From NCBI GenBank assembly GCA_963920765.1, contig OY987242.1:5544789-5608788 (forward strand): a DNA stretch of 64,000 nt. The letters are read 5' to 3'. This stretch comes from Ulota crispa. Lineage: Eukaryota; Streptophyta; Bryopsida; Orthotrichales; Orthotrichaceae. Shown piece by piece: positions 3,781 through 62,838 of the stretch (position 1 is its first letter; the number at the start of each line of letters is the position of its first letter). The notes beneath the pieces were generated by a model that saw nothing but the letters and a program-made list of their open reading frames with translations, ran no database searches and had not been told where the DNA came from. The position numbers and the translations under genes are program-made.

Positions 3781-4414
3781 GTAACCCTTAAAGGTCCAAG
3801 GTACGTTTGTTTTGGCAACAAAGCATTTTGGGCAGGCACTTGTGACTAGAGATTTCCATATTTTAGGTTGAAATTTTTAAAGAACTTTTATAGAAGGTGG
3901 GGACAAGGAATATCTTTCATATGTGTGCTAAGTTTCACAACATTTAGAAATATGGGTAAGAAGTTATGCTCTAATATACTACTTTTTCCTTGGGTGAGCA
4001 ATCCAAGCAGATTAGAAAAGAATCATTTTTCAGAAACAAAAATTCAAAATATCTTCAAGAGATTTTTGTATATTGGAAAGTTTTGAATCATTTATCCAAA
4101 TTGCCTTGAAGAATTAATCCAAAAAGTTACAACCATTTTGGAAAATAATTCATACATATGTGACCTTATGAAGTGTAGCTATCCTAGTTTTTGCAGGGAC
4201 AAAATATATCTATTTACCAAATCAAACTCAAATATCTTACAATCTACACGGTGAAAATTTCTGAAAAAATTTCACATCTTTTGAAACTACTCTAATACAA
4301 GATCTTACAACTACAAGTGTCCAAAAACTTTTTTTTCTAAAATTTGATATTTGCTAGAAATGGCAATCTTGGAGCGGTTTTGGTGAAAACTTAGCCCAGT
4401 TCTTTTGGGGTTAA
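3781..4414. mobile_element. TTAA-family element (634 bp, one border GTAA)
   Basis: The left end reads GTAACCCTTAAAGGTCC, and the right end reads GTTCTTTTGGGGTTAA. Both match the TTAA-bounded family found throughout the window, with one target base changed on the left. No coding capacity. Confidence 0.6.
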
Positions 4415-4920
4415 CAAATGGGACTACTAACTCTCCATTCCAACCCTTTCTTTCAACAACTAAGCTTATATTGCAATCATTTACCTTGGTAAATGGGTTT
4501 AACTTGTGATTTGTTGGATTTTTGGCTATCAGCTTGCTAAATGGGTTTTATTATATAATTTTTCATTTTATTGGAGAGGGAAAGGGAGAGAAAAAGGTAC
4601 CAAAACAGAGCGTGCAAAGACATTGAAACTTTGTTCTAAATACTCTTTTATAAGTTTAGAAGTCTTTGACATAGAGAATTGGGTGTCAAGCATTGGGTGG
4701 CAAGCACTGGATGGGCTATTAGTCATCCCAAATTTGAAATTCAAATAGGGAGAGGGACATAAGAAGGTAGGAAAAAGAGGTCAAAAAAAAGTCACAGACA
4801 CAATGCAAAGCATGTGCAAGGCATGTTTGTTTATTTATATAAGAATTTTGCAAGGTTCATAGTTAACACATTCCATGAAGCAAAGAAAATTCAAAGCGTA
4901 GTTTATATATGATCCATTGA
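4415..4920. other. Intergenic, nothing recognised
   Basis: AT-rich sequence with a short GA-rich patch near 4574-4595. I see no gene, RNA or bounded repeat. Confidence 0.4.
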
Positions 4921-4999
4921 TTAACCCTTGAGCGCCCATGGTTTCAAAATAACACAGAAATTAGGACCAGAATGGTCTGCTTGGGCGCTTAGGGGTTAA
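4921..4999. mobile_element. TTAA-family micro-element (79 bp)
   Basis: TTAA at both borders encloses 71 bases with ends CCCTTGAGCGCCCA and TGGGCGCTTAGGGG, a 14-base inverted repeat with two mismatches. Its right TTAA is also the left border of the next element, so the two insertions used the same four bases. Confidence 0.75.
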
Positions 5000-5229
5000 C
5001 CCTTAAACAACCATAGGGTATAGTATATACGTTGACATATAATTGTCATTTGCTACCAATAAGAAATTTTAATTTGGGATCTCAAGTAGCTCATTAGAAT
5101 GACATTGATCTATTTTTCAATTTCTTCGTTGATCTCAAATGTAGTAGAGGTGTGAATTCATTCCAAATACAAAAAAAATATCCCGTATTGTATTGATCAC
5201 AAAGGGCCTTTTAGTCGTTTAAGGATTAG
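4996..5229. mobile_element. TTAA-family element, 240-bp subfamily
   Basis: It begins TTAACCCTTAAACAACC and ends AGTCGTTTAAGGATTAG (the border has decayed to TTAG). The interior (AATTGTCATTTGCTACCAAT, then a GTTGATCTCAAATGTAGTA-type stretch) matches the copies at 17,975, 62,361 and 62,598. Confidence 0.75.
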
Positions 5230-7119
5230 AGAGATTCTTCAAGAAAGACCATATAATGATCATGCCCTAAATTCTTTTTTGGATGTCACTACATGACTAC
5301 ATCCAGAGACCTCCCACATAAACTCAAACATTCAAAGTCCATATTTACACGAATAGCCACTCTGAGTTGAATATGACATTATAATAATTGAAAATCATAT
5401 AGAAACTTTGGAAGTGGAAATCTATCATGTAATTATGAACTAAACTGAACTAACCAATCAAACATGAATGTATCATAATTATGTAAAGGTTGAGTAACAT
5501 CTAAAAAGAGAGTATTTTTGATGCACCCAACATATCCAACTAATTAGCAATTTGTTGTTTTGTTACTGAGATAAAAGTACAACGTGAAATTCATTTTAAG
5601 AAAGGGATTTAAAGGGGTAACAAACTAAATAAACCGGACTTATAAATATCCAAAATCGGGACTTTATTGATCAGGAATTTAGGACATACACCATTAATTG
5701 GTATCTGACTTCCAGATCAATCAGAGGGTTCCTGAGATGAACCCTAAAAATGGAAATTTAGCCAGTGCCACGTGTGAGGGTCTTTTCTTTGGTTTTGGAC
5801 CGCCATATGGTAAATTTTAATGGTGCCAATATGGCCCCACAAGATTTTTAGGCTACAAGTGTTTACACTTTGAGCTTGTTGATTATGATCAAATTTTCTT
5901 AAAATCAAAAACTTTTATTGTAAGAATGAAATTTATGAAAATGTGGATTACAAAACTTAAAAATTTATCACAAAAGAGGTATTATATCAAAATAATTTTA
6001 TTGTAGCTTGATTTTCAAAAAATATAGTTCCACATGGCATGAAGATCATGTTGTTTTCTACCTAAGTTTCTAACTTAGATAGTTGACTAGTTACAAACAA
6101 CAACATATTCATGTTTAAAATGTGTGGCAAGCATTTAGATTTGGAACATTGAGCAACATCTGACTCCATGAAGCTATTTTTTCTTCAATTTTTGTATATT
6201 AGGTTTGTAGCTTGATTTTTTTTATAGCTATCTTGCTTATAAAAGCTTAAAAAAAACCTTGGCACATACTACACAAATATACACAATCTCAAAAAAAGAA
6301 ATTGACCTAAAGAAAATTAAACTCTTAAACAATCTCCAAAGATTATACAACATAAATTGAAACATGAAATAACTTTCTATAGTAAGACAACCTAATTGTT
6401 GTGGCACCCTAATTGCATTATTTAGTGTACAACCCATGATCCGTCTAACACATAGAAAAGCGCATGAAGAAAAAATAATAATAATTGTGCATAACATCTT
6501 TGATCCGATTTTTAACCTCTGAAGGCTAAAGGGTGTTTTGGAAGAAAAAAATTCCAAAACTGTCACTTTTTGATGATTTGATCAAAATCCAAAATCGAAA
6601 CTTTTTTTGGATTTCAATTGATAAAGGTGTGTTGAACAAGGAAGACAATGTGTGGAAAAATGTACATCCCATTTGGCCACGTGGATTAAAAGATTATAGT
6701 ATTCATAGTTCCAAAACAAGTTTATCTTGGCCTTGTCTAAAAGGGAGAGTGGACTTTGAGCCTCCTTAGCTGACTTTTTTTGTTTTAAACAAACTCAAGG
6801 ATTTGAGGCATTCATAAGCATATGGAGTTAAGTCCAATCATGCAAAATTTTAGATGTAAGCAAGATGCCTAACTTACTCTAATTGAGCTTGCAATACAAG
6901 GGGGTCAAAGAAAATAACTATACACTAGCCAATCTTAAGAAATTTCTTGCTTAGTCAAAATTTATTTATTTACAAATCCAAGCAATGAACAATGAAACCC
7001 TGTATTTACTATGAGTAGCAATTTCTTCTAAAGAAAATCACCAAAGCTTGCAAAGTTATGCTAATTCTAGCTTGCCCCTATTCATAGTTTTCAAATCTTC
7101 TTCATGAATAAAGCAAGAA
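5230..7119. other. Intergenic, no gene; one trace of another repeat
   Basis: No coding region is supported. At about 6385-6412 the string GACAACCTAATTG followed by GGCACCC resembles the right end of the AGGTTGCC repeat at 30.5 and 45.5 kb, but without an inserted TTAA element. The remainder is AT-rich and unclassified. Confidence 0.4.
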
Positions 7120-7388
7120 ACGCCATATTCATTAAATTAGGAAATCAGATTCCCAAGTTGTACACCTTAAACCCAATGTTTTTCTTTCTGACGTTAAACA
7201 CTGGATTCAAGCGTATCAGATTTGGTCTCAGCCACTGAGATTTTGTCCCTTGCAAATTCCTCCTCTCAAGTGAAGGCAAGTGTACCAAAAAAATGCTACT
7301 TAAACCTAAAGCTCAATTTAAGGTGATCACCTTTATACTAAATTATTCCCAAATTTGGTGTTTCTTCCCAAATTAACAAATATGACAT
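7120..7388. mobile_element. CCATATTCATTAA-end MITE, copy 1
   Basis: The left end is GCCATATTCATTAAATTAGG and the right end TTCCCAAATTAACAAATATG. The interior phrases ACCTTAAACCCAATG, TTGGTCTCAGCCACT and CCTCCTCTCAAGTGA recur in copies at 9.5 and 12.7 kb. It ends about 280 bases upstream of the phytocyanin start codon. Confidence 0.65.
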
Positions 7389-7668
7389 TAAGATAGAAAC
7401 TTAGAAGATTGACTTCCTAAAATCCATTTTGTACAATAAAGAAAATACCTTGTCTTAATCCCATGCTTCAACAATAAACTATCGAACTTGTTTGATTTAA
7501 TGATCTAAACAAATTGATAGCTGCTTAAGGTTTTGTCACAAATGACTAAGATTGGCTTTCATAAAATGCTAAACACAATAACTAAAATTAAAAATACCAT
7601 TCTCACTTTCTTCACTTTGTACTGTCCGGAGCTAGCTAGCTAAGGTGCAGTGCAGTGCAGCAGTAAAC

Positions 7669-9074: not shown

Positions 9075-9131
9075 CAGCTCCTCCTGGTCGTCGTCGTTGC
9101 TGCAGTCTCCGTGGCCACCACGTTCGCTTAG
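9075..9131 (+). other. Orphaned C-terminal GPI-like tail after the phytocyanin stop
   Basis: Directly after the TGA at 9072-9074 the same frame stays open for 18 codons and reads QLLLVVVVAAVSVATTFA, then TAG at 9129-9131. A hydrophobic C-terminus of this kind following a Pro/Ser/Thr-rich linker is the GPI-attachment signal of many phytocyanins. This indicates that the TGA is a recent substitution, a sequencing error, or a real change to a secreted form. Confidence 0.7.
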
Positions 9132-9752: not shown

Positions 9753-9854
9753 GAGAAGTTGAAAGTTGCTATTTTTCCTCAACTATTCTTTTTCATGTTT
9801 CTTTTGGCATACTATAATATTTGATGTCATGGTTATTACATTGGACAGCCAGTA

Positions 9855-9994: not shown

Positions 9995-10019
9995 TGTCTG
10001 TTTGCATGCTTGTAAGTCT

Positions 10020-11110: not shown

Positions 11111-11114
11111 GCAG

Positions 11115-12026
11115 TTAACCCTTTAAGGACCACGCGACCATATTTTGGTCGCTGGGAGTGGTTTTTGGCTTGTAGGTTAAAATCACTCAATAATTTGGAA
11201 TTTGGTCTTGAAGAACGCATGTGATCACAAGAATTTTCATCCCTCTAAAAAAATAACAATGCAATCGGGTATTTGAGTTGATAAATAAAGGTGTTTATAT
11301 GGCATGGCTTCAAAATACGAATCCATTTTTTGTCAAAGATGGATCAAAGCAACAATACAATACATCAAGTATGCAAGAAGAATGTCAAATTAATTGCATA
11401 ATTCTAAAAAATTTCAAATTGCTTAAGAAATGCGCTTGTATTGTTTTCCTATACGATAGTAGTATAGTTGTAGTATTTGAAGATCTACTAAAATGGTGTT
11501 GTCATTTTGGCTTTAAAATTTGTCATCTTACATTTAAGGCCTATTCTTGATTTTTTTCACCAATTGGATTTTCCAAAATATTTATCAAATTTCTTGTAGA
11601 ACCATTTTAGGGCAACAAAGAAAGTGGGGTTTTTTACCTTTTTTGTCCACTTAGCTACACCTTGTGATTGCTATTCTTGTTTATTTTGTGTGAAACCAGT
11701 CTTATTGTAAAGGTGGGAAACCTTGCTTTCTAGAAATGTAAAGCTCTTTTCAATCAAAGCTTGCATGAAGCGCTAACATTCAAAACCACACAAGCATGAA
11801 ACACTAGAGATTTTTTGCATATGGCTCACCTAATCATTATAATGTTTCACGTCCAATGATAGATCTAGCTGAAATTTTGGTGCTTTACAATAAACAAGGT
11901 GTACTTCCCATTTGTACGGTTGGATTACTAAAATTGGGTGCATATTTGAGTTGATTGCTCATCTAAACTTACAGCCCTTGTTTTTAGTAAATTTTGTGAA
12001 AATGGGTATGGTCCTTAAAAGGTTAA
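11115..12026. mobile_element. TTAA-family element (912 bp), intact TTAA borders
   Basis: It begins TTAACCCTTTAAGGACCACG and ends GGTCCTTAAAAGGTTAA, an inverted pair about 17 bases long with exact TTAA on both sides. The interior has no open frame worth calling. Confidence 0.75.
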
Positions 12027-13770: not shown

Positions 13771-14127
13771 TTAACCCCTAAACGTTGGCACAGACGAAAA
13801 ACGTCCTTTGCCTCAAAAAAATGACTCGATATTCTAGAAAAAGACTGATTTTGATCTAATTTTTTTTCAAAAGTGATCATAAATGCGTAGTGCATCATGG
13901 AAGGCAAAAAATTACCTCTTGAGATACATTCATTTTGTTTTGTAACCCAAATTGTGATACATGGTGTTAGCTCCCGAGCTGCCCTTCTTGCAATTTTCAT
14001 GAGGACACCATGCACTGTTGACTTTTCCAACTTTTTGAAGCAATGCTACTGGTGCGCATGTGCAAAACACTGTAGAATGCTACAAGCAAGGCAAGCCACG
14101 GTGATCCATCCATCCTTTAAGGGTTTG
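13771..14127. mobile_element. TTAA-family element, 370-bp subfamily
   Basis: It starts TTAACCCCTAAACGTTGGC and ends ATCCTTTAAGGGTTTG (right border decayed). The interior (GAGGACACCATGCACTGTTG, TGCTACAAGCAAGGCAAGCC) matches the copy at 59,042 in inverted orientation. Open frames here come from the repeat. Confidence 0.7.
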
Positions 14128-17974: not shown

Positions 17975-18210
17975 TTAACCCTTAAACGTTTGAGTGTGTC
18001 TTTGCAGCCAATACAATACAAGGTGTTTTTTCTTGTATTTGGAATGGATCCACACCTTTACAACATTTGAGTTCAATAAAAAAGTTGAAATATAGATCAA
18101 ATGCGGTTCTAATGAACTATTTGAGATCCCAAACTAAAACTTCTTATTGGTAACAAATGCCAATTATACAGCAACGTGTCTGTCATCCCCATGAGACGTT
18201 TAAGGGTTGA
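17975..18210. mobile_element. TTAA-family element, 240-bp subfamily (inverted)
   Basis: TTAACCCTTAAACGTTTGAG on the left and GAGACGTTTAAGGGTTGA on the right (border decayed to TTGA). The interior is the reverse complement of the 4,996 copy. Confidence 0.75.
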
Positions 18211-26411: not shown

Positions 26412-27330
26412 TTAACCCCTAAAGGACCGTTCTCCCTTCAGGGGACAACTTTGGTTTTGGGCATGTACCTATGGAAAAACTACTTTGCGTGTTTTTTTGA
26501 AATTTTTATTGAAGGTGGGGAATTCCAAAAACAAAGTGGGTATTTAATTTTTTCTTCATTCTAACATTTGACAGAGAAGTTATCAAGATTTTTCTGCAAC
26601 TTGGGGGAGGGAGGGCAATGTGGACATCCCAAAAACTTCTTTAAAAATTAAAAAAAATAAAAATAAAATCTGAAATTGGTTCTTTAGATTTTTTTTATGT
26701 GTGGAAAGCTTTGAATCATTCAATTTCAATCAATGAGATGAAAGTTATGAGATGCTTTAGTTTATGGGCAATTACAGATCCTCTACTCTAAAATAAACTT
26801 TGAAGTCATTTGTTTTCCATAATTTTCAGTATTTTGGAGAAAAAACTAAACCATGGGAAGTAGATTTTTATTACAACCTATAACCGTTGGGATTTGCATT
26901 TTTAATTTCAAAAATTAAATTCTTAACAATTTAATGATTTGACTCATTCTCTACTTTTTTTCACTTATTATTTTTTCTCATGTGTTGTATAGTTCCAATT
27001 GATTTGAAAATTCTCCCTCACATACCTAACTTGGTCTTCTACATAAAAATAAATAAACCTCAACTTTGTGTAGAGCAATTTTTTTCATGTAAGAGTGGTC
27101 AAAGGCTTTTGAAATTTTTGGGCAGCAAGGAAAAAAAACCTTTTTATTCACTTCAGATGTAGATATCTCCCTCCTCTCCATATAGAATGACATGATTTTT
27201 CTCCCACAAGTACCTCTTCTAATCTACAACAAGATCCTATGGTTGGATTTTCAAAAAAATATGAAAAATATCTGCCTTTTTACTCATCCCCTAAAAGTAG
27301 CAGTTTTATGTGTTTTTGGCAGAAAAAATA
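26412..27330. mobile_element. TTAA-family element, 0.9-kb subfamily, right end missing
   Basis: It begins TTAACCCCTAAAGGACCG and stays collinear with the intact copy at 36,412 as far as CCCTAAAAGTAGCAGTTTTA near 27,310. The terminal GGTCCTTTAGGGGTTAA is then absent, so the copy is truncated. Confidence 0.65.
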
Positions 27331-30492: not shown

Positions 30493-31508
30493 TTAGGTTG
30501 CCCCATACTAATTTTTTGATATTTTACACTATTTAGATATTTACCAAGATTATAGTAACTTTTGTTAATAATTATTGTAATAAAGAATGGAGGAAGCAAG
30601 CAAAAGTTTGAACACAACAACAAACGTCAAAGTCAGGGAGCAAGGAAGTTGGAACTCTACACATAATGAGGAATAAGTGTAGCATAAGAGAGTTGCATGC
30701 CCCTCCATGTGACCAAAGCCCAAAGGCGAGTCATGAGGTAATTTTGTCAAGGTAAGGCAACCTAATTGTTAACCCCTAAAGGCCCAAGTGGCCCCTTTGG
30801 GGCCAAGTGGGATTTTGGGCATGTGCTTACAGCTAAACTACTTTGTGTAATTTTTTGAAACTTTTATAGAATATGGGGAATTCAAAGATCAACGCAGGTA
30901 TCTAATTTTTTATTTTTTTCTTCATTCCAACATTTATCGAAGAAGTTAAAAATGAATTTTTGAAAAACAAAGGAGGGTGGGCAGCCCAAAAGCTTCTTTA
31001 AATTTTTTATTTTTTCAAAATAAAAATTTGAGGTTGGTTCTTTAGACTTACATATATGTGAGAAGCTTTGAATCATCCAATTTTGATTGATGAGATGAAA
31101 GTTATGAGAAGTTTTAGTTTGCGGGTAGGTGTGGAAATTCTCAAAACCATGCCTACCCGCAAACTAATACTTCCTATAACTTTCATCTCATCAATCAAAT
31201 CTAGATGATTCAAAGGTTCCCACATATATGTAAGTCTAAAGAACCAACCTCAAATTTTTATTTAAAAAAATACAATTTTTAAAGAAGTTTTTGGGCTGCT
31301 CGCCCTCCCTATTTTTCTAGAAATTCATTTTTAACTTCTTCAATAAATGTAGGAATGAAGAAAAAATTTAATGCCCACACAAATCTTTGAATTCCCTATC
31401 TTCCATAAAAATTCAAAAAATCACGCAAACTAGTTTATGCATAGGTACATGCCCAAAATCCATTTGTCCCCAAGGGAATACTTGGGCCTTCAGTGGTTAA
31501 GGCAACCT
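30493..31508. mobile_element. TTTAGGTTGCC-end repeat, copy 1, split by a TTAA-family element
   Basis: The left end is TTAGGTTGCCCCATACTA. The right end is AAGGCAACCTAATTG followed, after the nested element, by TTAAGGCAACCT. A second copy with the same ends and interior phrases (AGTTGCATRC, AAGTGATGAGTCATGAG-type) is at 45,478. The target duplication is unclear. Confidence 0.6.
30769..31500. mobile_element. TTAA-family foldback (732 bp)
   Basis: TTAACCCCTAAAGGCCCAAG and CTTGGGCCTTCAGTGGTTAA sit at the ends with exact TTAA. The element is one long inverted repeat: GTTTGCGGGTAGGTGTGG and CATGCCTACCCGCAAAC meet at the centre (about 31,135), and the arms pair outward for roughly 350 bases (ATGAGATGAAAGTTATG with its complement, and so on). 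A transcript would fold into a long hairpin. Confidence 0.8.
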
Positions 31509-32782: not shown

Positions 32783-33506
32783 TTAACTCCTAAAGGACCA
32801 AACCCTCTTTTTTGGAAACAAATGGGATTTGGGCATGTACCTATGGCTAAACTACTTTGCATGATTTTTTGAAACTTTTATCGAAGGTGGGGAATTCAAA
32901 GATCTATGTGGGCATCTAATTTTCTCTTCATTTTGACATTTATTGAAGAAGTTAAAAATGAATTTTTGGAAAAGGGGCAAGATTGGGCAGCCTTAAAACT
33001 TCTTTAAAAAATTTATTTAAAAAAAATAAAAATATGAAATAGGTTTGTTAGACTTACATAGAAGTGAGGAGCTTTGATTCATTCAATTTTGATTGATGAG
33101 ATGAAAGTTATGAGAAATTTTTGTTTGCGGGTAGGTGTGGTTTTGAGAGAAAACTTACCTATCCGCAAACAAAAACTTCTCCTAACTTTCATCTCATCTA
33201 TCAAAATTGAATGATTCAAAGCTTCCCATGTCTATATAAGTCTAAAGAATCTATTCAGATTTTTATTTTCTTAAATTCAAACTTTAAAGATGATTTTGGG
33301 CTGCCCAATCTTGCCCGTTTTTTGAAATTCATTTTTGGCTTCTTCAATAAATGTTAGAATGAAGAGAAAATTAGATGCCCATGTAAATCTTTGAATTCCC
33401 CACCTTTGATAAAAGTTTCAAAAAATCACAAAATGTAGATTAACCGTAGGTACATGCCCGAAATTCATTTGTCCCCCGAGGGGATAGTTAGTTCTTTAGG
33501 GGTTAA
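32783..33506. mobile_element. TTAA-family foldback (724 bp)
   Basis: TTAACTCCTAAAGGACCAAA and GTTCTTTAGGGGTTAA with exact TTAA. As in the 30,769 copy, two arms of about 350 bases meet at GGGTAGGTGTGG...CCTATCCGCAAAC near 33,140. The left TTAA overlaps the TTA border of the preceding Harbinger-like element. Confidence 0.8.
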
Positions 33507-33825
33507 GCAAGGAAACCAATTAAAACTTTAAATTTTGCGGCGGTTCATGTCATATTTTTTTTTCTAATAATTAATACTAATCATATTCTTTGATTCATAT
33601 ATTAACCCTTAAAGGACCAAGCCCTTTTTTTCTTTGAAAATTACTGAAAATTGCCACTTTTGGAAGAATGAGTAAAAATGTAGGAAAAAAAGTATTTTTG
33701 GAAATTTCAACCATAAGGTCTTGCCCTAGACTTTGAGAGGTAATTGTGGAAAAAAAATTCAGCTCATTGTGGATGTAGATGAATGAGATATTGAAATTTG
33801 AATTAAAACAAGAAAAAAAAATTGT

Positions 33826-36411: not shown

Positions 36412-37349
36412 TTAACCCCTAAAGGACTATTGTCCCTTCAAGGGACAGGTGGGAGTTCAGGCATGTACCTTTAGATAAGCTATTTTGTGTGATTTTCTAA
36501 AATTTTTATTGAAGAGGGGAATTCAAAGATCCACGTAGGCATCTAATTTTTTCTTCATTCCGACAAGTATTGGAGAAGTTATGCATGAAAATCTGAAAAG
36601 CAAGGGAAGACTATCTGCCCAGGTAGCCCAAAAACTTCTTTAAAATTTAATTTTCTTAAAATTAAATTATGAAATTGGTTCTTTAGATTTTTTTTATAGG
36701 TGAAAAGCTTTGAATCATTCAATTTCAATCAATGACATGAAAGTTATGAGGAGATTTTGTTTGCGGGCAGTTTTGGAATCTCTACTCTAAAATAAACTTT
36801 GAAGTCCTTTATTTTACTCAATTTTCTTTATTTTGGAAAAAAATCAAAGCCAAAGGATGTAGATTGTTTATCACAACATTAAGACCATTGGGATTTTCAT
36901 TTTTCATTTTCATAATTAAATTCTTAACAAATTAGTGATTTGACTCATTTTCTACTTCCTTTTACTTACTAATTTTTCCTATGTGTTGTGTAGTTCCAAT
37001 TGATTTGAAAATTCTCCCACACATACCTAATTTGATCTCCTACATGGGAAAATTAAAGCGCAAAGTTGCATAGAGCAATTAATTTCATGTAAAAATGGTC
37101 AAAGGCTTTTGAAATTTTGCGGCAGCATGAAAAAAAACTTTTTTTTTCACTTTAGATGTAAATATCTCACTCACGTCCATCTGGAATGACCTGATTTTTT
37201 TTTCACAAGTACCTAATCTAGTCTAGGGCAAGATCCTATGGTTGGATTTCCCAAATTTTCAAAAAAGGATACCTTCTTACTAACTCCCCCAAAAGTGGCA
37301 GTTTTGAGTGATTTTCATTGAAAAAATGGCTCAATCCTTTAGGGGTTAA
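36412..37349. mobile_element. TTAA-family element (938 bp) nested in a sister copy
   Basis: TTAACCCCTAAAGGACTATT and AATCCTTTAGGGGTTAA with exact TTAA borders. The host sequence across the gap, CCTTCAA|TTAA|AGTTTCAAA, corresponds to CCTTTGATAAAAGTTTCAA in the paralogue at 33,403, so the empty site is visible and the four-base TTAA is the duplicated target. Confidence 0.85.
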
Positions 37350-40533: not shown

Positions 40534-40612
40534 TTTACCCTTAAATGCCCAAGTCATAAAATTTTGACGTAAAAACCACCAAAACTTGGTACCTTGGGAA
40601 TTGAAGGGTTAA
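40534..40612. mobile_element. TTAA-family micro-element (79 bp)
   Basis: TTTACCCTTAAATGCCCAAG and CTTGGGAATTGAAGGGTTAA. It has the same total length as the micro-element at 4,921, with the left border decayed to TTTA. Confidence 0.65.
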
Positions 40613-44683: not shown

Positions 44684-45053
44684 TTAACCCACAAACGTCA
44701 AGTTGGTCTTGTCTCTATGGTTGCCCTCTGCAGTAGCACTACATTGGTGTGAAAGTGGTGTGGTAAGTGCCTAGATATTATAAAATTGTTTCCAAAACAT
44801 GCATGTTGTCCTAGTGAAAATTGTAAGAGGGGCAGCAAGGGACCTAACATTGTGTCTGTGAATCTTCTCACAATTTGAGTTACCTTAAATACGATTGTAT
44901 TTAGTGAGATTGTTTTTTGTTTACCATGATGAATTATGTCTTCATGATCATTTCTAGAGAAATTCAAATGAAAAAAGACTTTTTTCCATCCTGCAAAGTA
45001 GTTTTTTGCAATTCAACACACAAAATGTGTTTGCCTTGGCGTTTAAGGGTTAA
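44684..45053. mobile_element. TTAA-family element, 370-bp subfamily
   Basis: TTAACCCACAAACGTCAAG and CCTTGGCGTTTAAGGGTTAA with exact TTAA. The interior (CACTACATTGGTGTGAAAG, ACCATGATGAATTATGTC) follows the 59,042 copy. Confidence 0.75.
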
Positions 45054-45477: not shown

Positions 45478-46602
45478 TTAGGTTGCACAAAATTAATTTC
45501 TTAACATTTTACATTAATTATATGAGTACTAATTGTTACAACACTAATTTTCATCAATATTTACTCCCCTAAACTAATTTTGAAGGGCCTAATAACAACA
45601 CCCAAGTTGTAGAATAACAAACATTGTCCAAGTCATAAACCATGTGAATTCCTAGTATTTAGGTAGTTGCATACGTCTCCAAGTGGCCAAGTGATGAGTC
45701 ATGAGTTAACTTTTTAAGGTAAAGCAACCTAATTGTTAACCCCTAAATGCCCAAGGGTGTTTTTCTTGTTTTTGGAAGGTAGTTTTGAAGTTTTTGAATT
45801 GTCCTTATATGAACATTAGTAAACATCAAAACAAAATTGTAACCTTATGATCTTGAACTTCAAGGCTTTTAGATGGTGCTACCAAAAAAAAGTCTCCAGA
45901 AAGGCCATGCGGGTTTCAAGATATTTGTGATTGAATGTAAATTGAGTACAAATTTTGTTGGTTTCTTTTTTATTGCCCAAAACTTCTAATGCAAAAAGGC
46001 AACTTAATGACCCCCCTTCCAAATTCACAGTCACAATTTCATGAGCAAGCTTGCAATACAATAGTCAAAGAACTACCACCAAATACAAAGATTGTTTTTA
46101 ACTCCATTTAATAACCAAAAATCATTATGAATGAAAGAAAATTCAACAATGAATGAATCCTTTTTTGTATAACAAAAACACCCCAAGTGAAATTAGTGCA
46201 AAAACACATGTAGATAATGTTAGATGGCAAAATTTAGTACAAGGGCCCTCACTACCCAGGGAGTGCCCAAGGGAAAGCTTAACTTTATTCTCAACTTGAT
46301 GCATGTCTTTTCAATGTGGCAACTTGTCATAGGTTTTGTGACACTGTTCATGCTATTATTCATGACACTATTTGGCGCGCAAGAGGTATGTTTGAAGTTT
46401 GGCTTCCACCAAAAAATTGGACTAAAATTTGGAGGACATTAATATTGAACATTAAAGCTAACTTTAATCCACAACTTCTTTGAAATCAAAATCCCTTAAA
46501 AAAGTCAAATTTGTGCCTTCCACATAGTTTCAAAGGGCTTAAAACTTCCTAAACACCAAAATTTGGTGTTGCGAGCATTTACAGTAGGGGTTAAGACAGC
46601 CT
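45478..46602. mobile_element. TTTAGGTTGCC-end repeat, copy 2, split by a TTAA-family element
   Basis: TTAGGTTGCACAAAATTAAT on the left and AAAGCAACCTAATTG + TTAAGACAGCCTAAA on the right, with the nested element between. It is collinear with the 30,493 copy up to exactly the same insertion point. Confidence 0.6.
45736..46594. mobile_element. TTAA-family element (859 bp), AAATGCCC subfamily
   Basis: TTAACCCCTAAATGCCCAAG and GCGAGCATTTACAGTAGGGGTTAA with exact TTAA. The interior phrase GTTTTTCTTGTTTTTGGAAG and the right-half phrases CTTTTCAATGTGGCAACTTG and CATGACACTATT match the 60,669 copy. Confidence 0.75.
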
Positions 46603-46646: not shown

Positions 46647-47568
46647 TTAACCCCTAAAGGCCCAAGGAACCCAATTTGGGCTTTATGAGAACTTGGGCAG
46701 GCTCTATTGGTTTCATAATTTGGAATTTTTTTCATGAAACTTTTAGGATGGATGCTACTCATCATAATCTATATGTGAAGCTTTATTTCATGTCATTTGG
46801 ATAAGTATTGCAAAAGTTAGAAGGTTTTTTCAATTTCAATGTCAAACCAGGCAGCAAAAATTATACTCTAAATTTCTTTAATTTTTTTTTATAGAATTGT
46901 ACATTGATACCTACTCAAAAAAAATTGAATCACTCAATTCCAAATAATGAGGTAAGAGTTACGGGGAGTTTTCTTTTTGCGGGCAATGAAGGTAGGAAGA
47001 GGGTAGAAAAAACATATAAAGTTATCTTTTACTCTCAATTTTGAAAAATTACAAATGAAAATGAAAAATAAAGTTACTAAATGTTTGTTAGAGCATTCTC
47101 ACCATTGGGATTTACAATTTTCAAATTCTTCCAAAACTTATTAGCATATTAGTTATATCTTTCATTCATCAATACCTTTCACTTTACAATTTTTGTAAAA
47201 ATGAATCCAAAATTTTTTTTGGTTCTATTTTTTTACATATGTTTTCAACCCATTTTCAGACATATTGCAAAAATTGCACAAGAATTACAACATATGTGTT
47301 TTTTTTCTAAAAAGTTTGAAAATCAAAATTTCACCTTTTGGAAGGATTACAAAAGCCTAAATTTTGAAATTTAGGCACATTGATCTTGCAATTGGTGGGG
47401 ATATTCATTCTAAAATTTTGGGACAATGTACTTGTGCAAGCCAACCAAAGGATCCTATGGTTGAATTTGTTAAAATATAAGTTTCAATGAAAATTTTGAC
47501 CCTAATTTGGGGACTAGTATTTTGAAGCAATTTTGGGCCTCTAAACACAAAAGAATTTTAGGGGTTAA
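46647..47568. mobile_element. TTAA-family element (922 bp)
   Basis: TTAACCCCTAAAGGCCCAAG and AATTTTAGGGGTTAA with exact TTAA. A small insertion (CTAAACACAAAAG) interrupts the right inverted repeat. The interior is related to the AAAGGCCC subfamily (TTGCGGGCAATGAAGG, GATCCTATGGTTGAATTTG). Confidence 0.7.
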
Positions 47569-50553: not shown

Positions 50554-50580
50554 GTATCCTTCCAAGAATCATCTAGATGG

Positions 50581-53500
50581 TCATGGGACTAGAAAATGAT
50601 GTGGTACATAGTTCCAAAGAATGCCATACCTATCTGATCTACAAAAGACTGGTTGTTGAGTTATCCATTGCACTTTAAAGGCCCCTTCCAACTGCAGTTG
50701 TGTTTCTTTATCTCTGGCATGCTGGTGTAGTGCTTGCCAACTGGCCAAACCTGTGTGCACCATTGCTATGTAGGCTTGGGTAAGCACTTTGTCCATGAAT
50801 GGTTCTTCTCTAGCAAATCGTCGACAACACCTTGCCGTCCAGATGTGCCAGATCAGGAATCCTCGCATGATGTCCCACGGATGATTTTCAAATGCGTATT
50901 TGAGTGCCATTGTACCTGAAACTAGCACTCAAAATTCACCAAGGAGTGCCTGCTCCCATGTGTTGAATGTTGGGCCTCCGTAATTCCTTGCCAGCTTGTT
51001 GTATCTGGACTAGGCCTCCACAGCAAACGAGCAAGTCCAAATGAGATGGACGTTAGTTTCTTCTTCTCTGTTCCTGCACATTTCACAACTAGGTGCATCT
51101 TGCATACCAATTTTTGTTAGCCACGCTCTTGTAGGTATTCTTTTGTTTGTGAGTGACCACAAGAAAGTTGCGATCTTTTGTGGTCTCGTTTTGTGCCATA
51201 GGAATTTATAGTACTTCATTTGATTTGCTCTACTATATCCCCAAGCTATGAGGATTTGAGACGCTAGAGGTGTGTCATACAATTGTGAGAGACTTGTTTT
51301 GTATCTTCGCCTGGCTGTGTACGCAAAGAAGGGAGCTTGATCTAGACGACCCATCTTCCTCCATACCTAGTCTCTGGATCCCAAGGTAGGTCTTGGGCAT
51401 AACACCCTCCCATGAGATGTATTCTGTCTTGTTGCAATGGTAGTGTTTTAGGATTGAAAGCTGTATAGCATCACTTTTCTTGTGACCACACTACTACACA
51501 TACCTCATGGTGTGTCTAGTCTTGGAGTTGGTAGTTGGTATGGATTCCAGTGAGCAGCCTCAATTCTTCTTGTATTTCAAATTTCACAACCTACATCTCT
51601 TGTGACTCTATGTCTGTATGCTTGACAAAGTAAACTGAGTTTAGTTCTAGGCCTGCTCCCACCCAATCTCCTACCTAAAGTGCTGTTCTGCTGCATAGCT
51701 CCCACAGAATCTTAGATAAGATGGCTATCATGTTGTCTCGGCATCTGAGCTTGTCTTTGCGGAGTGGGAGATGCTCCTGTAACTAGGCTGTGGTGTACCA
51801 GTCGTTTGTGTTGTGATTCCAGAGGTCTTTTACTCTGGTCAGGCCTGCCTTTGCCCATTGGTGATAGTCGTTGTGTGCTCCTAGGCCTAGAGGCACTCTT
51901 GATGAATCTTGGATGCTTGGATTGCCAAAAATTGGTTGACGTTGAATTCTGGCTATGGAGCCTGGTTCTTGAAATAGCAGGTTGTGTCTGACCAAGAGGA
52001 ATGCCGCAAACGCGGCATTCATTAGTTTTGAGTTTTGCCTGGTTGTAACCTTGTTACTGACAAAGAGCCAATTTTCGGATTGTGGCCATTGGGTTCTTCC
52101 CGTTAGCTTGAGTTGGTTGGTATGGTAGCGCACCATGTCTTTGCAAGGTTCATAACCAAGGCTTAACCCTCTGACGACCAATTTGACAAGCAGTGCTTTA
52201 ATTTGGAGGAGAGGGTCCAGCAGCTTTATTCCACCTGCCGGTTGGAGAAGTATGCAAGTTGTCCACCTGATTTTGGCTCTGCAATTGCTTGTTGCCTTTC
52301 TTGACCATATGAAGTTTTTTATCAAGGCTCTTATCATAATGCATTTGCTTTTGTCTAAGCCACAAGTAGAGGCTGTATACCAGCAAGTTGCCAAAAGTAC
52401 TTGATTGTTGACAAGTATCTTTCCTGCCAGCGATAGATGCTGCGTTGCCCATTTGTTCAGCTTGTTTTCTAAGGAGTAAATCAATGGGAGACCATTGGCA
52501 TGAGGAGTGAAATGAGCTGCAACCTTTAGTCCCAAGTACATGGCAGCTTCTCCTTGTGCCAACCAATTAAGTCCAAACGTGTCACCCCAAGTTAAATCTC
52601 TCAATTTTCTGGAGGCCCATATGGTATAGGGTTTTCTCCAATTTATATTTGAGCTGATGCGTTACAGTATACTTGAAGTACATGCTCCATTTGCCTTAAA
52701 TTTTTCTCTGAGCCTTCCAAGTATAGGGCCGTGTCATCAGCAAAAGAGGCATCTGTAAGTGTTTGTTCACCTGGTAGTGTAAATGCTTTGATGTTGTATA
52801 TGAAATCCTATAACATGTGGCCAAGGGAATCAAGAACAAGGATGAAGAGAAATGGTGCTGTTGGGCATCCTTGGCGCACTAAGCAAGTGAGGAAAAAGTC
52901 AGGTCCTATTTCTCCCTTGGTCAAGGTGGCTGTTGTTGCATTGGTGTAGAGCATCATGACATGCCTTAGGAATTTGTTGCAAAACCCTAGTCTTGCCAGA
53001 ACTTCTTACATGAATCCCCAACTTATTTGGTCAAATGCTTTTTCAAAGTCCAGTAGTAAGAGAACGAGGTCCTATTCACTTTCTTCTGCATAATCAATTG
53101 TCTCTTGTGCCAATATAATATTATCTATTATATTGCAACCTTAGACATATCCAGTCTGATTTGGACGTACTAGTATTGATAAAAGGGGCTCTAGTCTTCT
53201 AGCGATGATTTTTGCAAGAATCTTGTAAAATGTGCCCAATAAAGTTATTGGTTGGTAGTTTGCCAACTGGGTTAGGTCCCTTGCTTTGGAGATCAATGCT
53301 ATTAATCCTCTATTGAGTTCCGGTGGGATCTCTTTTGAACTCATGGTTGCTCTGACCGCTAGCAACAGGTGGTCTTGAATGTCATCAAGACATGATTGAA
53401 AGAATTCTATTGGAATCCCATCTAGGCCGGGAGCTTTGCCTTTGGCTAAACTTCGTATGGTTTCTCTTAGCTCCAGGATGTCCACCTCTTGCGAGAGCTC

Positions 53501-54914
53501 CGTGTTCATGGTGTGCGTGACTTTGTTGGGAATTCTTGAGTAGACCTCTTGTCTCGCCGCCATGACCTCTGGAGTCTCAACCTTTTGTCTATAAAGGTTG
53601 GAGAAGCAGTCTGTTGCAGCTGCCACCTTTGCAGATTGAGATGTTAAAATAGAGTCTCTAACTTCTAGTATAGATATGTAGGTTCTCTTTTTTAGTGGTG
53701 TGTGGTACTTGAAGAACTTCTTGTTGCACCTGTCTCCTTGTTGCATCCAGAATGCTGAGACCTCTTGATGGCGCTTCTCCAGGTCTATCATGGTGTATAT
53801 GTTGAGTTTTGTTCTACACCTTGAGATCTCTTCTATGACCACTTCATCTGCTGGGTGTCTGGCTAGATAAAATTCCAATTTTTGTATCTTTTGGAGGAGG
53901 TCTCATTCTCATTGGAACTTCTTGCGCCGTATCTGCTTGTTGATGACTGTGGCCGTTGCTTGAACTCGTTGGAGCGCATTATGTGTCCAAGTCAGCCTGG
54001 ATTCTCCTTGTACTGGTTCTGCAGCGTTCTTCTATGCTGTGATCAAGGCTGATTTATGATCAACGTTTTTAAGCAGAGTAGGATTCAGCCTCGGTTGGCC
54101 TTTTGATGTTTCCTTAGCGGAGAAGGCAAAGCAAAACTTGGGCAGTGGTCACTCCATTTCTTGAGATGTGGCCCTATATCGTAGAAGCCTCCATGTTCTT
54201 CCAACTCTACGCTTATGTAGATTCTGTCAAGTCGTGATTTCCGATTCTTTGCTCCTGCTTGGTTGTTGTTCCAAGTGTAGCGTTTTTCACTTGTATTTTT
54301 GATTTTGTTGCAGTGGAATGCATCACGGAGACCATATGAGTTTAAGAGCTGGAACCACATTGCCCATTCCCTGCGATTCATCCTTGGTCGAATTATCTGT
54401 CCTCCTTGTTGGTCTGCTATGTCTTCATCCATATCGAAGTCACTACCAAGTATGTAGGTGTCTGCATTTATTTCTGCTTACAATATGTTCTTCCATAATT
54501 TGTATCTTTCAGTGTTTTCGACGCAAGCGTAGACATTTATGATTGCTATTGATGTACTCTCATCTTTTTGTATGATGACATATTGTGCTCAACCTGCTAG
54601 AATGATACCACTTGAGAGAATCTTGGGGGTAAGGTCAAGTGCAAGTAAGATTGCTATTCCTTCCCTACAGTGGGATCCTCCTGGTGCTATAATACCGGAG
54701 TTCCAAAGTTTTGTGCCTCCTAGGAAGGGTAGGCTCTTTGTATGATGTTTGCAGTTGTCTCTCGTAAGTCAGTGTTCTTGTAATAGAACAACTTGCGATG
54801 GGTAGTCTGCTCTTTCAAAATTCTTTGAAAGTGTGTTTGGCGTCATGCACCATTGGCACTCGTTCCAATCCCTCGTACATTGAGGGATACAATCCTGAGG
54901 GGAGCTAGCATCAT
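50581..54914 (-). pseudogene. LINE ORF2: endonuclease / reverse transcriptase / zf-RVT, inactivated
   Basis: ORF2 spans about 1,440 codons in several broken frames. The N-terminal endonuclease begins RIVSLNVRGIGTSANGA and continues VVLLQEH, GGSHCREGIAILL, then GSDFDMDED and SRLDRIYIS...SDHCP (54,085-54,432). The RT domain contains GKAPGLDGIPIEFF, LISKARD and NYQPITLLGTFYKILAK (53,141-53,878), and after a stop FADDTALYLE (about 52,715-52,745). The thumb/connection follows at 51,783-52,604, then zf-RVT with FLWSLTNKRIPTRAWL and CEMCRNREEETNVHLIWTC (51,010-51,354), and a C-terminal piece ending at 50,581. These enzymes nick target DNA and copy the element RNA there. Stops and shifts occur in the endonuclease, between RT motifs and in the linker regions, so the protein is not made intact. 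Confidence 0.85.
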
Positions 54915-55840
54915 GGATGCAAGTCTTGCAAATTGATGGTATCCCAACTGCAATTGGCACTCTCGGTAAGTTGTTGTTTTTCGGCTAGCTGCATTGGTGA
55001 TGCTTGCCTGCGTGGCCGTTTGGTTGAGGCTTTGTGCTTGTCTGATGAGTCTAGCCAGTGTGTAAGCAGTTGATTTGCAGTAGCACATCCATTTGCTAGA
55101 GATAGACTGCTAATTTTTGTCTGTGCTATCCATTTGTATGTGTGAGGGCAATACTTAGTTCCTCTTGACTTTGGCAGCACTCTAATGGCTGCCATTGCAC
55201 TAAATTCGTACTTATCCATTTTGCCTTTCCATCTGCTAGACCAAAATATGTTGTTCCAAGTCAATATTTTATATGGCTTGGGAGTGATGATGTCAATAAT
55301 GCAGCTTTGAAGCTGCCGAAGTATCTCCAATTGCAATCTTGTTACTGTATTTTTTCCTTCTAGCATGGTGACTAGAATAGCTGCAGTGAGTTCTTGCGAT
55401 ATACTCATAGATTTGAGCAGTATATAGATCTCACCACCAAACTTCTTGTATATCACTGGCCAGATGGTGATGTTCCGGGTTTTGGATTGTGGTATTTCCT
55501 TGCCATGTTGGTGGAAGATTGCGCACACTTTTGACATGTTAAAGATGTTCCACAAGGAGTCTAGAAAATCAGCTATCTTCCTTTGGTTTTCTTCTTCTGT
55601 TGTGTGCCTTGGTTTGTCATTGAGGTAAGGCATCGACCTTGCCCTGGTCTCTTAGGTAACCAGTATTGTCAGTGTTGGTGTTTCTGGTTGTGTGACTGAT
55701 TCTAGTGAAGATGTTGCTAGTTGATCAGTTTCTTGAATTTCCTTGATAATCTGCATTCCTTCAAGGTACGACTCCTTGCCTTTCTGTGTTGTGGGGCTTG
55801 ATGCTGTGTCTTGACTTCTTTTTGCTTGAGGTTGAATGTG
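54911..55840 (-). pseudogene. LINE ORF1, C-terminal part
   Basis: Open segments at 55,652-55,843 and 54,911-55,633 encode a hydrophilic region followed by a mixed region (PYKILTWNNIFWSSRWKGK) I do not recognise. By position it is the C-terminal half of ORF1. Its stop TGA overlaps the ORF2 start, as ATGATG. A single stop separates the two segments. Confidence 0.6.
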
Positions 55841-56379
55841 CATTGTTGGTGGCTTTGGAGCGTCTGCCTATAAGCAAGCTTGTATGGTTGTTGGAATAAT
55901 TCATATGTTTGACAAAATTTCTATTTCTTGCATATTGATATCCTCATTTGTGGCACTGGCTATCTGGACAAGTGCAGCTATATCTTTGTTTTGGCTTGAG
56001 ATCTTTAGTGTGGACACTACGCACCCCTTGCTTTGCTTTGCCTTAGTCTTGCTTGTCTTTTGACTACTTGTTATTCAGCTCATGTGCTGTCAGATTGTGT
56101 GAGCTTCTCGGTGAGCTTACAAATTTCACTATTTGCCACTTGTATTTGCCGTGAATCTTGAGGTTTGGTCTTTTCATTAGGAGCTACCTGTGGGCTTTGT
56201 GAGGTTTGCTTGCCGTCTCGAGGCTAGGTGTCTCCGTGTGTGAGGCCGGCTATGTCCTTTGCCCTGTTGTCTCCATCTCCCATTGCTAAGAAGGTATATG
56301 CATTTGTAAGTGGTATCGGGTCATTTTGTTTTGTAACTTCATCTTTCTTCTTCTCTTGGTATATCACCTTCCCCTTGGA

Positions 56380-57189
56380 CTAGGGCCAAGCTACTGCATT
56401 TGTCTTTGGGGTCTTTGTCTTCTTTCTCTGCCTTTGTTTGCTTTTGACCGGTGTAAATTCTCTTGCACTACGGGCTTTCTGGGCCTCAGGACTTGTATCC
56501 ACTGCTGCTTTGGAAGTGTCTTTGTACCTTTGAAGACCGCAATCTCTGCTTTCATGGCCGAATTTACGGCAGTGGTTACATTGGCCTGGTAGGCCTGAGA
56601 AGTATACACGTTGCTTGATACATTCTTCACATGCTACTCCGCATTTTGGAGCTGGTAAGGTTATAGTTTCTGGTAAATTGTCAGTTTTTTCCATTATCAC
56701 GTTCTCAATTGGCCCTACTAGCCTTTTGACTGCTGAATGTTTACCTTCCACCGTTATAACCTCACCAAATTTGGCTCCTAGTTTCCTCAACCATTTCTCT
56801 CCTCTCCATGCTGGATCTAGAGCTAGGAATTGCACTCTCATTGGATACCTTGCGTTGAGTGTTGCCGAGGGATTTTCTTGTGAGAAACCACTATGCCAGC
56901 TTTGGAAGCAAATTGCTCTGCCTCCCCATGCAAGGTTCCTTTTTTGAATGCATCGTAGTGCTCCTTTTGCGTCTGGAAATTCCAGACAAAAGAAACTCCT
57001 TGGGAGGGTTTGGAGTGTTGTGAACTTATCTTGCAAATGGGTTTGCAGGAATTCGACTAGGTCTATGTAACCTGGAGATGCCCCAGGAATGCGCCCTAAC
57101 ACCATCTTTTTTATGCAATCTTTGTGATTGGCTTTCAATTCTTCCAGCTTGTTATCTGACAAGTCTAATGTGATTACTACTTCCTCCAT
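56380..57189 (-). pseudogene. LINE ORF1, N-terminal part (DUF4283-like plus zinc knuckle)
   Basis: A 269-residue frame. Residues about 35-180 resemble the plant LINE DUF4283 region (FFCLEFPDAKGALRC, PMRVQFLALDPAW, LGAKFGEVITVE). A CCHC zinc knuckle CNHCRKFGHESRDC follows at about 203-216, and then a basic Lys/Arg-rich tail. In plant L1 elements this protein coats the RNA. After the stop at 56,380 the same frame continues with hydrophilic sequence (VIYQEKKKDEVTKQNDP) interrupted by further stops, so the ancestral ORF1 was longer. Confidence 0.8.
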
Positions 57190-58035: not shown

Positions 58036-58046
58036 AAGTTAACTTT

Positions 58047-59041: not shown

Positions 59042-59406
59042 TTAACCCTTAAAGGACGGATGGATCACTGTGGCTTGCCTTGCCTGTAGTAGTCTATAGT
59101 GTTTTGCACATGGACACTAGTAGTATTGCTTCAAAAAGTTGGAAAAATCAACAATGCATGGTGCCCTCATGAAAATTGCAAGAAGAGCAGCTTGAGAACT
59201 AACACCATGTTTTTAAATCTTATCACAATTTAGGTTACAAAAAAAATGAATGCATCTCAAGAGATAATTTTTTGTCTTCCATAATGGATCATGTGTTTAT
59301 GGTCACTTCTGGAAAAAAATCAAATGAAAAACAACTTTTTTCTGAATCACGGAATCTTTTTTCAAAGCAGGACAATGTTTTGTCCTCCTCAACGTTTAGG
59401 GGTTAA
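59042..59406. mobile_element. TTAA-family element, 370-bp subfamily, intact borders
   Basis: TTAACCCTTAAAGGACGGAT and CTCCTCAACGTTTAGGGGTTAA with exact TTAA; the best-preserved member of this size class. Copies at 13,771 and 44,684 are related. Confidence 0.8.
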
Positions 59407-60668: not shown

Positions 60669-61597
60669 TTGACCCCTAAATGCCCAAGGGTGTTTTTCTC
60701 GTTTTTGGAAGGTAGTTTTGAAGTTTTTGAATTGTCTTTGGAAGATTATTATTAAACATCAAAACAAAATTGTAACCGTTGAATATTGAACTTCAAGGTT
60801 TCTAGATGGCACTATTCAAAAAGAGTTCAAAATGGCTACGCAGATTTTAAGATATTTGTGATTGAATGATGATGAGTATGGAATTTTTTGCTTTTTTTTA
60901 GCTGCCCAAAACTTCTAATGCAAATTGGCAACTTTTTAATACAAACTTGGGAGACAACCACTTAGGATGCTTTAATATTTATTGTTGTTACTTCAAAACC
61001 AATGACCCCTCTTCCAAATCCACGACCACACTTTCACAAATGAGCCTGCAACGCAACTATCAAAACGCAACCGTCTAATACAAAGAAATTTTCAATTGCA
61101 ATTATTGACCAAAAATCATTTTGAATGAAAGAAAATTCATCGGTGAAAGGATCCCAATTTCTATAACAAAGACATTCCAAGTGAAATTAGTCCAAAAGCT
61201 CTTTTAGATTTTGTTAGATGTTCAAATTTCAGTAAAAATGCCCTTACTGCCCAAAGGAGTTCCCAAGGGAAATCTTCACCTTTTGCTCAACTTGATGCCC
61301 ATTTTTTCAATGTGGCAACTTCTCATAGGCTCTATGACACTATTCACAACACTATTCATGATACTATTCATGACACTATTCACAATAGAAAATGTATGCT
61401 TGTAGTCAACCTTCCACCAAAAATAAATGGAATAAGATATGGAGGAAGCTGAATTTGAACGGCAAAGCTAACTTCAACCTACAATTTTTCCACAAAAAAA
61501 TTTCAAAATAATAGAATTTGTAACTTCAACAAGGTTTCAAAGTTTTCTAAAAAATTTTGGACACCAGAATCTGGTGCCTTGGGCATTTAGGGGTTAA
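60669..61597. mobile_element. TTAA-family element (929 bp), AAATGCCC subfamily
   Basis: TTGACCCCTAAATGCCCAAG (border decayed) and GGGCATTTAGGGGTTAA. Collinear with the 45,736 copy. A short ACTATTCATGA repeat lies near 61,340-61,385. Confidence 0.8.
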
Positions 61598-61646
61598 ATT
61601 GTGAGGCAACTAGACCAAAGGGCTCTATTGTATTACACTTTACTTA

Positions 61647-61953
61647 AGGTAGGAACACCCATAAGCGTTAGTGTCCCCATAACCATCACCTCTGAAATCT
61701 TGGAAAATCTGTGGAAATGAATAGATGTAATTACAAGGATGTACAACATGTGAACATGAAACCTTAGTGTTGGTTATGGATGCAATGGCAGTTTGCTCTT
61801 TAAAATTCACAACTTATTCTCATAGTATCTAAATAATACATTCAAAAGTGCAAACTAAATATTTTTCTGTTCCTAACAAGATCCTATAATTTGCTAGTTG
61901 TTAATTAATACTTGTCATGTTCAAAACTCTTAAGCTTATAGGTGTTCCTACCT
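61647..61953. mobile_element. AGGTAGG-family MITE, copy 6 (307 bp)
   Basis: AGGTAGGAACACCCATAAGC and TTATAGGTGTTCCTACCT, flanked by TA, collinear with copy 1 at 12,268. Confidence 0.8.
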
Positions 61954-62036
61954 TACTTATCAGTTTCTTATTGATAAAGTTACAAATGTTGTTTGGTCCC
62001 TCTACCAAACCCCAATCTTGAGAGATAGAGGGATTA

Positions 62037-62361
62037 AGGTAGGAGGCTCATAAACCGACCATCTAAGGGCTGAAATTGAATTTTGGGAGGTGAAACTTCT
62101 TGGACTGTTTTTCAGTAAATTTTCCTTGAAAGACAAGAAGAATTGACATCTAATCCAAGTTGTTTCATATTTTTTGGAGTTTTGTGGAATTAGTAATAAA
62201 ATTTTGAAGTGAAAAGGCCATATGTCTCTAAAACCATTCACCTCCTCAATTGCACTTTGCTTGTACATTTTTGAAACCTATGAAAATCAACATGTACACA
62301 TGAAAAACATTTGAGAAGGTGGACAGTTTTAGAGCTTGAGCGGAATATGAGCCTCCTAGCT
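62037..62361. mobile_element. AGGTAGG-family element, GGCTCATAAACC subfamily (325 bp), copy 7
   Basis: AGGTAGGAGGCTCATAAACC and GAATATGAGCCTCCTAGCT flanked by TA. Its right TA sits within the TTAA of the next element. The interior phrase GAATTGACATCTAATCCAAG is shared with 18,387 and 63,478. Confidence 0.75.
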
Positions 62362-62601
62362 TAACCCTTAAACAATTGAGCTACTATAATACATACTATG
62401 TACGCTGTTGTATAATTGGCATTTGCTACAAACAAAAAGTTTTAATTTGGAATCTTGACTACCTCACTAGAACAACATTGATCTATATTCTAACTCCTTT
62501 GTTGATCTCAAATGTAACAAAGATGTGGATGCACTCCAAATACCAAAAAATACTCCTTATTGTACAAGTTGCAAAGGGCTGCTCAGTTGTTCAAGGGTTA
62601 A
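62361..62601. mobile_element. TTAA-family element, 240-bp subfamily, tandem copy 1
   Basis: TTAACCCTTAAACAATTGAG and CAGTTGTTCAAGGGTTAA. Its right TTAA (62,598-62,601) is also the left border of the next copy. Confidence 0.85.
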
Positions 62602-62838
62602 CCCTTAAAGAACCACTCTATGTATTGCATAGTAAATACATTGCTTGTATAATTGGCATTTGCTACCAATAAAAAGTTTTGATTTGAGATCTTGACTAGC
62701 TCACTAGAACCGCATTGATCTATATTCTAACTTCTTTGTTGATCTCAAATGTAGTAAAGGTGTGGATGCATTCCAAATACAAGAAAATACGAAATACTGT
62801 ATTGGCAGCAAAGGGCTCCTCGGTCGTTTAAGGGTTAA
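62598..62838. mobile_element. TTAA-family element, 240-bp subfamily, tandem copy 2
   Basis: TTAACCCTTAAAGAACCACT and CTCGGTCGTTTAAGGGTTAA. Same orientation as copy 1 and highly similar to it, which suggests repeated use of one TTAA or a tandem duplication. Confidence 0.85.

Follow-up and report, generated by a model that had tools for sequence, protein, structure and literature searches.

Does a family of short inverted-repeat elements in a moss genome belong to the piggyBac superfamily, and which transposase could have moved it? This question is raised by a 64,000-nucleotide stretch of Ulota crispa DNA (assembly GCA_963920765.1, contig OY987242.1, positions 5,544,789 to 5,608,788; hereafter the window), in which repeats with similar ends lie next to TTAA. 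Our analysis indicated that the window repeats are very probably non-autonomous members of the piggyBac superfamily in the moss nuclear genome, comprising miniature inverted-repeat transposable elements (MITEs) and internally deleted copies; larger, transposase-encoding copies in the same genome most likely moved them. What can be read from the DNA itself is a 4-bp TTAA target with its duplication, ends of the form CCCYT...ARGGG, partner elements with a predicted DDE_Tnp_1_7 transposase and its putative catalytic aspartates, and one deletion derivative.

TTAA-bounded elements in the window

The exact motif CCCYTAAANGNCC is present 11 times in the window (8 on the forward and 3 on the reverse strand), against an expectation of 0.0 under a dinucleotide model; exact TTAACCCYTAAA is present 20 times. 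TTAA precedes 8/11 CCCYTAAANGNCC ends, and the other three are preceded by GTAA, TTTA and TTGA, each one base off. With up to two mismatches allowed, 15 TTAA-flanked ends were found on the forward strand and 13 on the reverse strand; 20 dinucleotide-model shuffles averaged 0.2 per strand.

Based on the end list, candidate pairs, between-copy homology and one nested case, we delimited 14 elements (Table 1). They are 71 bp (two copies), 226-233 bp (three), 349-362 bp (three), 716-724 bp (two) and 904-930 bp (four) in size. Both borders are exact TTAA in nine elements; in four (5000-5225, 17979-18206, 40538-40608 and 60673-61593) a single border is one base off. The right border of element 13775-14123 is two bases off; it was retained because it aligns end-to-end with 59046-59402. 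Copies of the same size align to or near both ends, so the borders are fixed independently of the end motif. Seven ends (3785, 26416, 33606, 37438, 44600, 45740 and 58711) have no partner. The original prediction of about 20 elements, about a dozen of them with exact TTAA on both sides, described a real pattern, but both figures are somewhat high as counts of pairs. As single strands, the 71-bp elements 4925-4995 and 40538-40608 fold better than their shuffles (z of -4.26 and -2.53), 0 and 4 of 200 shuffles, respectively, folding as well.

CCCTAAA, the plant telomere repeat unit, is contained in element ends, including those at 26416, 30773 and 45740; its occurrence there is probably due to chance.

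Full-length partners encode DDE_Tnp_1_7 transposases

The genome (274.8 Mb, 157 contigs) was searched with the PF13843 (DDE_Tnp_1_7) profile; 528 candidates were obtained and 116 were scored. The search gave 120 matches at E <=0.001 (best, 1.3e-73), which are present on all contigs C1 to C11; none of 14 control genomes had a match. No ends were found in the 1.5-kb flanks of 20 transposase loci (L009-L028). The 20 best loci were analysed with ~4 kb per side, wider than the first 1.5 kb, and six of them could be delimited at both ends as elements of 5.0-6.7 kb, each with its transposase match inside (Table 1). TTAA is found at 10 of their 12 borders, TTCA or TCAA at the other two. In agreement with the CCY/RGG ends of piggyBac elements, 11 of the 12 ends carry CCCY; the left end of L044 reads GCTT. 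The ends are of three types: CCCCTAAATGCC; CCCCTCATYGCC / CCCTTCATTGCC; and CCCCTAAGYGC / CCCTTTAGTGTCC. L032 and L042 have CCCCTAAATGCCY ends, and their mutual homology starts and stops there; likewise, L029 and L038 are homologous up to their TTAA borders and not beyond.

The L032 frame matches PF13843 with an E value of 2.6e-59. Among solved structures, its relatives are piggyBat (1.7e-16) and entry 6x67, named 'Transposase' (3e-13), and a downstream piece of L032 aligns to a solved chain over the GVD..DQ motif. The catalytic DDD of Trichoplusia ni piggyBac is formed by residues 268, 346 and 447. With L032 as the reference, four aspartate columns hold D in 18, 13, 18 and 16 of the 20 loci; three of these columns (18, 13 and 18/20) correspond to the predicted catalytic DDD, in motifs shared with the solved chains. 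Among 15 aspartate losses, 12 are D to N. PiggyBac transposases also have a C-terminal cysteine-rich domain; in several moss loci a Cys/His-rich tail is visible by eye, where the alignment to solved proteins is not significant.

Some window elements can be linked to these larger ones beyond their short ends. Bases 1-558 of element 60673-61593 are 84% identical to one end of the L032 element and bases 793-921 are 73% identical to the opposite end; a match to both extremities marks it as an internally deleted copy of that type. In 36416-37345, the right end shows 77% identity over 351 bp to an end adjoining the transposase locus L045, for which only one border could be delimited. The window end at 33606 shows 72% over ~200 bp to the same L045 end. 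Short, high-copy elements whose inverted ends are common to an autonomous-type element, as expected of MITEs, are thus represented by 60673-61593 (for L032/L042) and 36416-37345 (for L045); the other size classes agree by short ends and TTAA only. It had been suggested that one transposase mobilised unrelated interiors. This is not supported, since the transposase elements are of three types with different end variants and 60673-61593 is an ordinary internal deletion.

In L032, a 430-residue glutamine/glutamate-rich open frame (5699-6991, reverse strand) lies upstream of the transposase; it has a match in one other of the 20 loci (L042, 27% over 150 residues), and may be an N-terminal part or unrelated. 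Two stop-free open frames with PF13843 matches, C1:1180709-1181995 (563 residues) and C8:19570986-19572215 (472 residues), are candidates for intact or domesticated transposases.

Table 1. Elements in the window and transposase elements delimited at both ends; positions are those of the window or, after a locus name, of that locus
Feature	Position	Strand	Borders and remarks
71-bp element	4925..4995		TTAA both borders; right TTAA (4996-4999) common to next element, 5000-5225; hairpin z -4.26
226-bp family element	5000..5225	+	TTAA left, TTAG right; end-to-end with 62602-62834 (77%)
904-bp element	11119..12022		TTAA both borders; candidate pair
349-bp family element	13775..14123	-	TTAA left, right two off; 80.7%/362 columns to 59046-59402
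228-bp family element	17979..18206	-	TTAA / TTGA; 1-199 to 62602-62834 (81.5%), 31-228 to 5000-5225 (80.9%)
724-bp foldback element	30773..31496		TTAA both borders; 79% to 32787-33502, either orientation; long inverted arms
716-bp foldback element	32787..33502		TTAA both borders; pair, inverted arms, homology to 30773-31496
930-bp insertion	36416..37345		TTAA both borders; nested in foldback-family copy, right end 37438
71-bp element	40538..40608		TTTA / TTAA; hairpin z -2.53
362-bp element	44688..45049	+	TTAA both borders; middle 188 bp only, 75% to 59046-59402
914-bp element	46651..47564		TTAA both borders; candidate pair
357-bp family element	59046..59402	+	TTAA both borders; pair and homology
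921-bp internally deleted copy of 5.4-5.7 kb piggyBac-like element	60673..61593	-	TTGA / TTAA; L032-type
233-bp family element	62602..62834	+	TTAA both borders; left TTAA common to another element end
L032-type end fragment	45740..46226		TTAA left border; 1-266 80%, 266-487 76% to L032 end
Delimited transposase element	L029 1567-6585		PF13843 match between ends
Delimited transposase element	L038 1601-6618		PF13843 match between ends
Delimited transposase element	L032 1671-7408 (5,738 bp)		PF13843 match between ends
Delimited transposase element	L042 2175-7622 (5,448 bp)		PF13843 match between ends
Delimited transposase element	L043 427-7105		PF13843 match between ends
Delimited transposase element	L044 2311-8764		PF13843 match between ends

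TTAA as target, genome-wide and at a nested insertion

Genome-wide, TTAACCCYTAAA ends number 39,919, compared to 792 for the reversed control, and TTAACCCYTAAANGNCC is found 9,725 + 9,740 times (reversed control, 0 + 1). If most elements carry two TTAACCCYTAAA ends, the TTAACCCYTAAA count suggests a copy number of ~20,000. TTAA precedes 2,118 of 2,520 (84%) exact CCCCTAAATGCCCAAGG ends (controls, 0). Of 27 local exact ends, 25 have T at position -4, and position -5 is mixed. In a hand tally among 100 listed places, 17 pairs of ends face each other at less than 1 kb; they form two size groups, of 637-664 bp (13 pairs) and 898-938 bp (4 pairs), both TTAA included.

One insertion, 36416-37345, allowed the target to be compared with related empty sequence. 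After removal of one TTAA, its joined flanks align to 12 uninterrupted foldback-family stretches, some of which are the two arms of one foldback element; no row is gapped at the TTAA columns, and two of the 12 carry a one-base gap within 10 bases of the site. At the target position the relatives read TAAA (11/12) or CAAA (1/12), and the interrupted copy reads TTAA. It seems that a substitution created the TTAA before the insertion; by this alignment, the insertion duplicated it exactly. A duplicated TTAA target, as in piggyBac, is represented by the 2,118 ends above and by this one related empty site. Pairing of 36416 with 37438 had been considered and was dropped in view of the nested-site alignment.

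The two outcomes that would have spoken against the piggyBac prediction were both looked for: most genome-wide copies of one end type proved to be TTAA-flanked, and the full-length partners encode DDE_Tnp_1_7 rather than another transposase class. Target, ends and linked transposases agree in supporting the superfamily assignment.

Points against the assignment and alternative explanations

Several results weigh against a piggyBac origin of the window repeats. Fourteen of the 20 analysed transposase loci are not delimited at both ends. By our count, 110/120 PF13843 match rows contain at least one internal stop, and the ten stop-free rows are mostly partial matches; the second catalytic aspartate is gone in 7/20 loci. 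Owing to these stops and aspartate losses, no copy is demonstrated to be active. For 10 of the 14 window elements, the flanks were joined and searched for genome-wide (40 of 2,788 candidates scored), and no empty site was found. In that search, a few repeat matches extend 8-29 bases beyond the join and none spans both flanks elsewhere; the sole match over both flanks, window 62761-62914, reflects two stacked related elements. In addition, the 226-233, 349-362, 71 and 904-914 bp elements show no subterminal homology to the six delimited elements, so for these classes the transposase partner is deduced from short ends and TTAA only.

The last point leaves some room for Kolobok and Sola3, which are other TTAA superfamilies. 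One of them could have moved some of the size classes, given that the 226-233 and 349-362 bp elements share only short ends with the six delimited elements and that our transposase search was not aimed at Kolobok or Sola. However, these classes have the same kind of ends and the same target as the elements with a piggyBac-type transposase, and we consider this origin very unlikely.

Less likely still is an origin of the MITEs in a superfamily that inserts at TA (Tc1/mariner, Stowaway-like) or TWA (PIF/Harbinger, Tourist-like) and has no more than a preference for TTAA, although TTAA includes TA, TTA and TAA, and a passage of a review (PMC10004981) names both superfamilies for angiosperm MITEs. 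Among CCCCTAAATGCCCAAGG ends preceded by TAA, 2,118/2,215 (95.6%) also have the outer T; among those with TTA at the three outer positions, 2,118/2,201 (96.2%) have the inner A. With a TA or TWA target the outer base would be expected to vary more, so this equal conservation disfavours both. Neither the 2-bp TA duplication of Tc1/mariner and Stowaway MITEs nor the 3-bp TWA duplication of PIF/Harbinger and Tourist MITEs was found, the four flanking bases all being conserved; the TTAA duplication at 36416-37345 and the DDE_Tnp_1_7 partners also argue against both.

Stranded or domesticated genes, with MITE ends nearby by chance, are a conceivable reading of the transposase loci where exact TTAACCCYTAAA ends are as dense as 20 per 64 kb, yet this reading can be practically dismissed, as the L032/L042 and L029/L038 homologies break off at TTAA borders, 60673-61593 aligns to both L032 extremities and PF13843 matches lie on each of C1 to C11.

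Proposed mobilisation, stacking and decay

For the piggyBac assignment, we propose, by analogy to known piggyBac elements, that a piggyBac-type transposase would bind the element ends, excise the element and reinsert it at TTAA. Each copy would bring two TTAA targets, so later insertions would sometimes stack end-to-end and share one TTAA. TTTARGGGTTAACCCYTAAA, which represents two ends with one common TTAA, is found at 573 sites genome-wide (control, 0); in the window, looser stacked pairs lie at 4993 and 62595. By our own estimate, random TTAA insertion predicts ~200-300 stacked pairs, and the excess is two- to threefold. This estimate takes ~19,600 elements and puts the TTAA sites of the genome at 1.3-1.9 million, a range scaled up from counts of 1,169 TTAA in 254,020 bases and 452 in the window. 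Uneven insertion density could be behind the excess.

After insertion, the copies may have decayed partly via C-to-T changes at CG and CHG sites. L029 and L038 are 90.5% identical over 5,017 aligned bases, with 417 transitions and 59 transversions; C/T differences between them occur at a rate of 0.20 at CG and CHG sites, compared to 0.06 at CHH. Of four further pairs, 4/4 show a higher rate at CG than at CHH, and 3/4 a higher rate at CHG than at CHH (the exception is 30773 vs 32787). In-frame stops in the 20 best PF13843 matches, tallied by hand, are 38 TAG, 25 TGA and 11 TAA. The C/T pattern and the stop spectrum fit deamination of methylated cytosines, and such decay suggests that the copies were methylated and silenced.

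As a tentative extension, to which we give less than even weight, the piggyBac expansion in this moss lineage might rank among the largest known in any land plant, comprising ~20,000 copies, mostly non-autonomous, and no fewer than three lineages that bear a transposase. Part of the new copies would have been seeded into the TTAA borders of earlier ones, two to three times as often as at random, and the resulting chains might move as composites.

Relation to known piggyBac elements

To our knowledge, nearly all study and engineering of piggyBac has used elements from animals. Entry 6x67, which we take to be the piggyBac transposase of Trichoplusia ni, has in common with the moss elements a DDE_Tnp_1_7-type core, the aspartate motifs, the TTAA target and CCC...GGG ends. 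The moss elements differ in host and in their CCCYTAAANGNCC ends, and the E value of 3e-13 covers 185 residues of one L032 piece. The best solved relative of L032, piggyBat (entry 9c0f), differs by its bat host; piggyBat also uses a TTAA target, and has ends other than those of the moss elements.

The elements were initially thought to be of a superfamily seldom reported in land plants, and this needs correction. A 2021 paper mentions that piggyBac-like elements occur in plants (PMC8086355), PiggyBac appears in a review's list of MITE superfamilies in angiosperms (PMC10004981), and an assembly table for a fern gives 1,230 PiggyBac repeats (PMC6890710). The angiosperm elements of the review are plant MITEs too; they are named in one sentence, in a passage that gives no transposase. 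A paper on coral MITEs makes many uses of piggyBac, TTAA and MITE in the matching text (PMC2872659), and its host is an animal, not a moss. Among the matches listed in the open-licence literature, no moss piggyBac element was found, which does not exclude existing reports; in one moss paper, the matching word was only 'piggybacking' (PMC10619864).

The Ulota crispa elements are of a known kind in a little-described host, with high copy number and transposase-bearing relatives in the same genome. What stands out is their scale (an estimated ~20,000 copies) and the moss host. The plant piggyBac reports that we found in print are, in the passages concerned, brief mentions (PMC10004981, PMC6890710, PMC8086355). 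Full-length transposase elements, several end variants and very many TTAA-bounded derivatives in one moss genome provide a plant system for piggyBac, in which superfamily history, end recognition and silencing become comparable with those of animal elements.

Other sequences in the window and the genome

Open frames at window positions 51783-57189 resemble a decayed long interspersed nuclear element by eye. Within them, 53141-53878 has a reverse-transcriptase-like motif and gives no Pfam match at 0.001; 56380-57189 is a DUF4283-like frame slightly under the Pfam cut-off.

Two full-length PsaA/PsaB matches without stops are located on the 112.5-kb plastid contig C157. The psaB of this contig reaches 1681 bits with 7ksq, 6l35 and 8htu, which are chains of the moss Physcomitrium patens, followed by 1643 with 9lut and no more than 1603 with any other listed chain; a count by eye gives eight differences from 7ksq in 720 residues. 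This agrees with a moss as the host. The other 46 of 48 PsaA/PsaB matches are outside C157, on the nuclear contigs C1-C10, and are mostly short; these are apparently many insertions of plastid DNA in the nuclear chromosomes.

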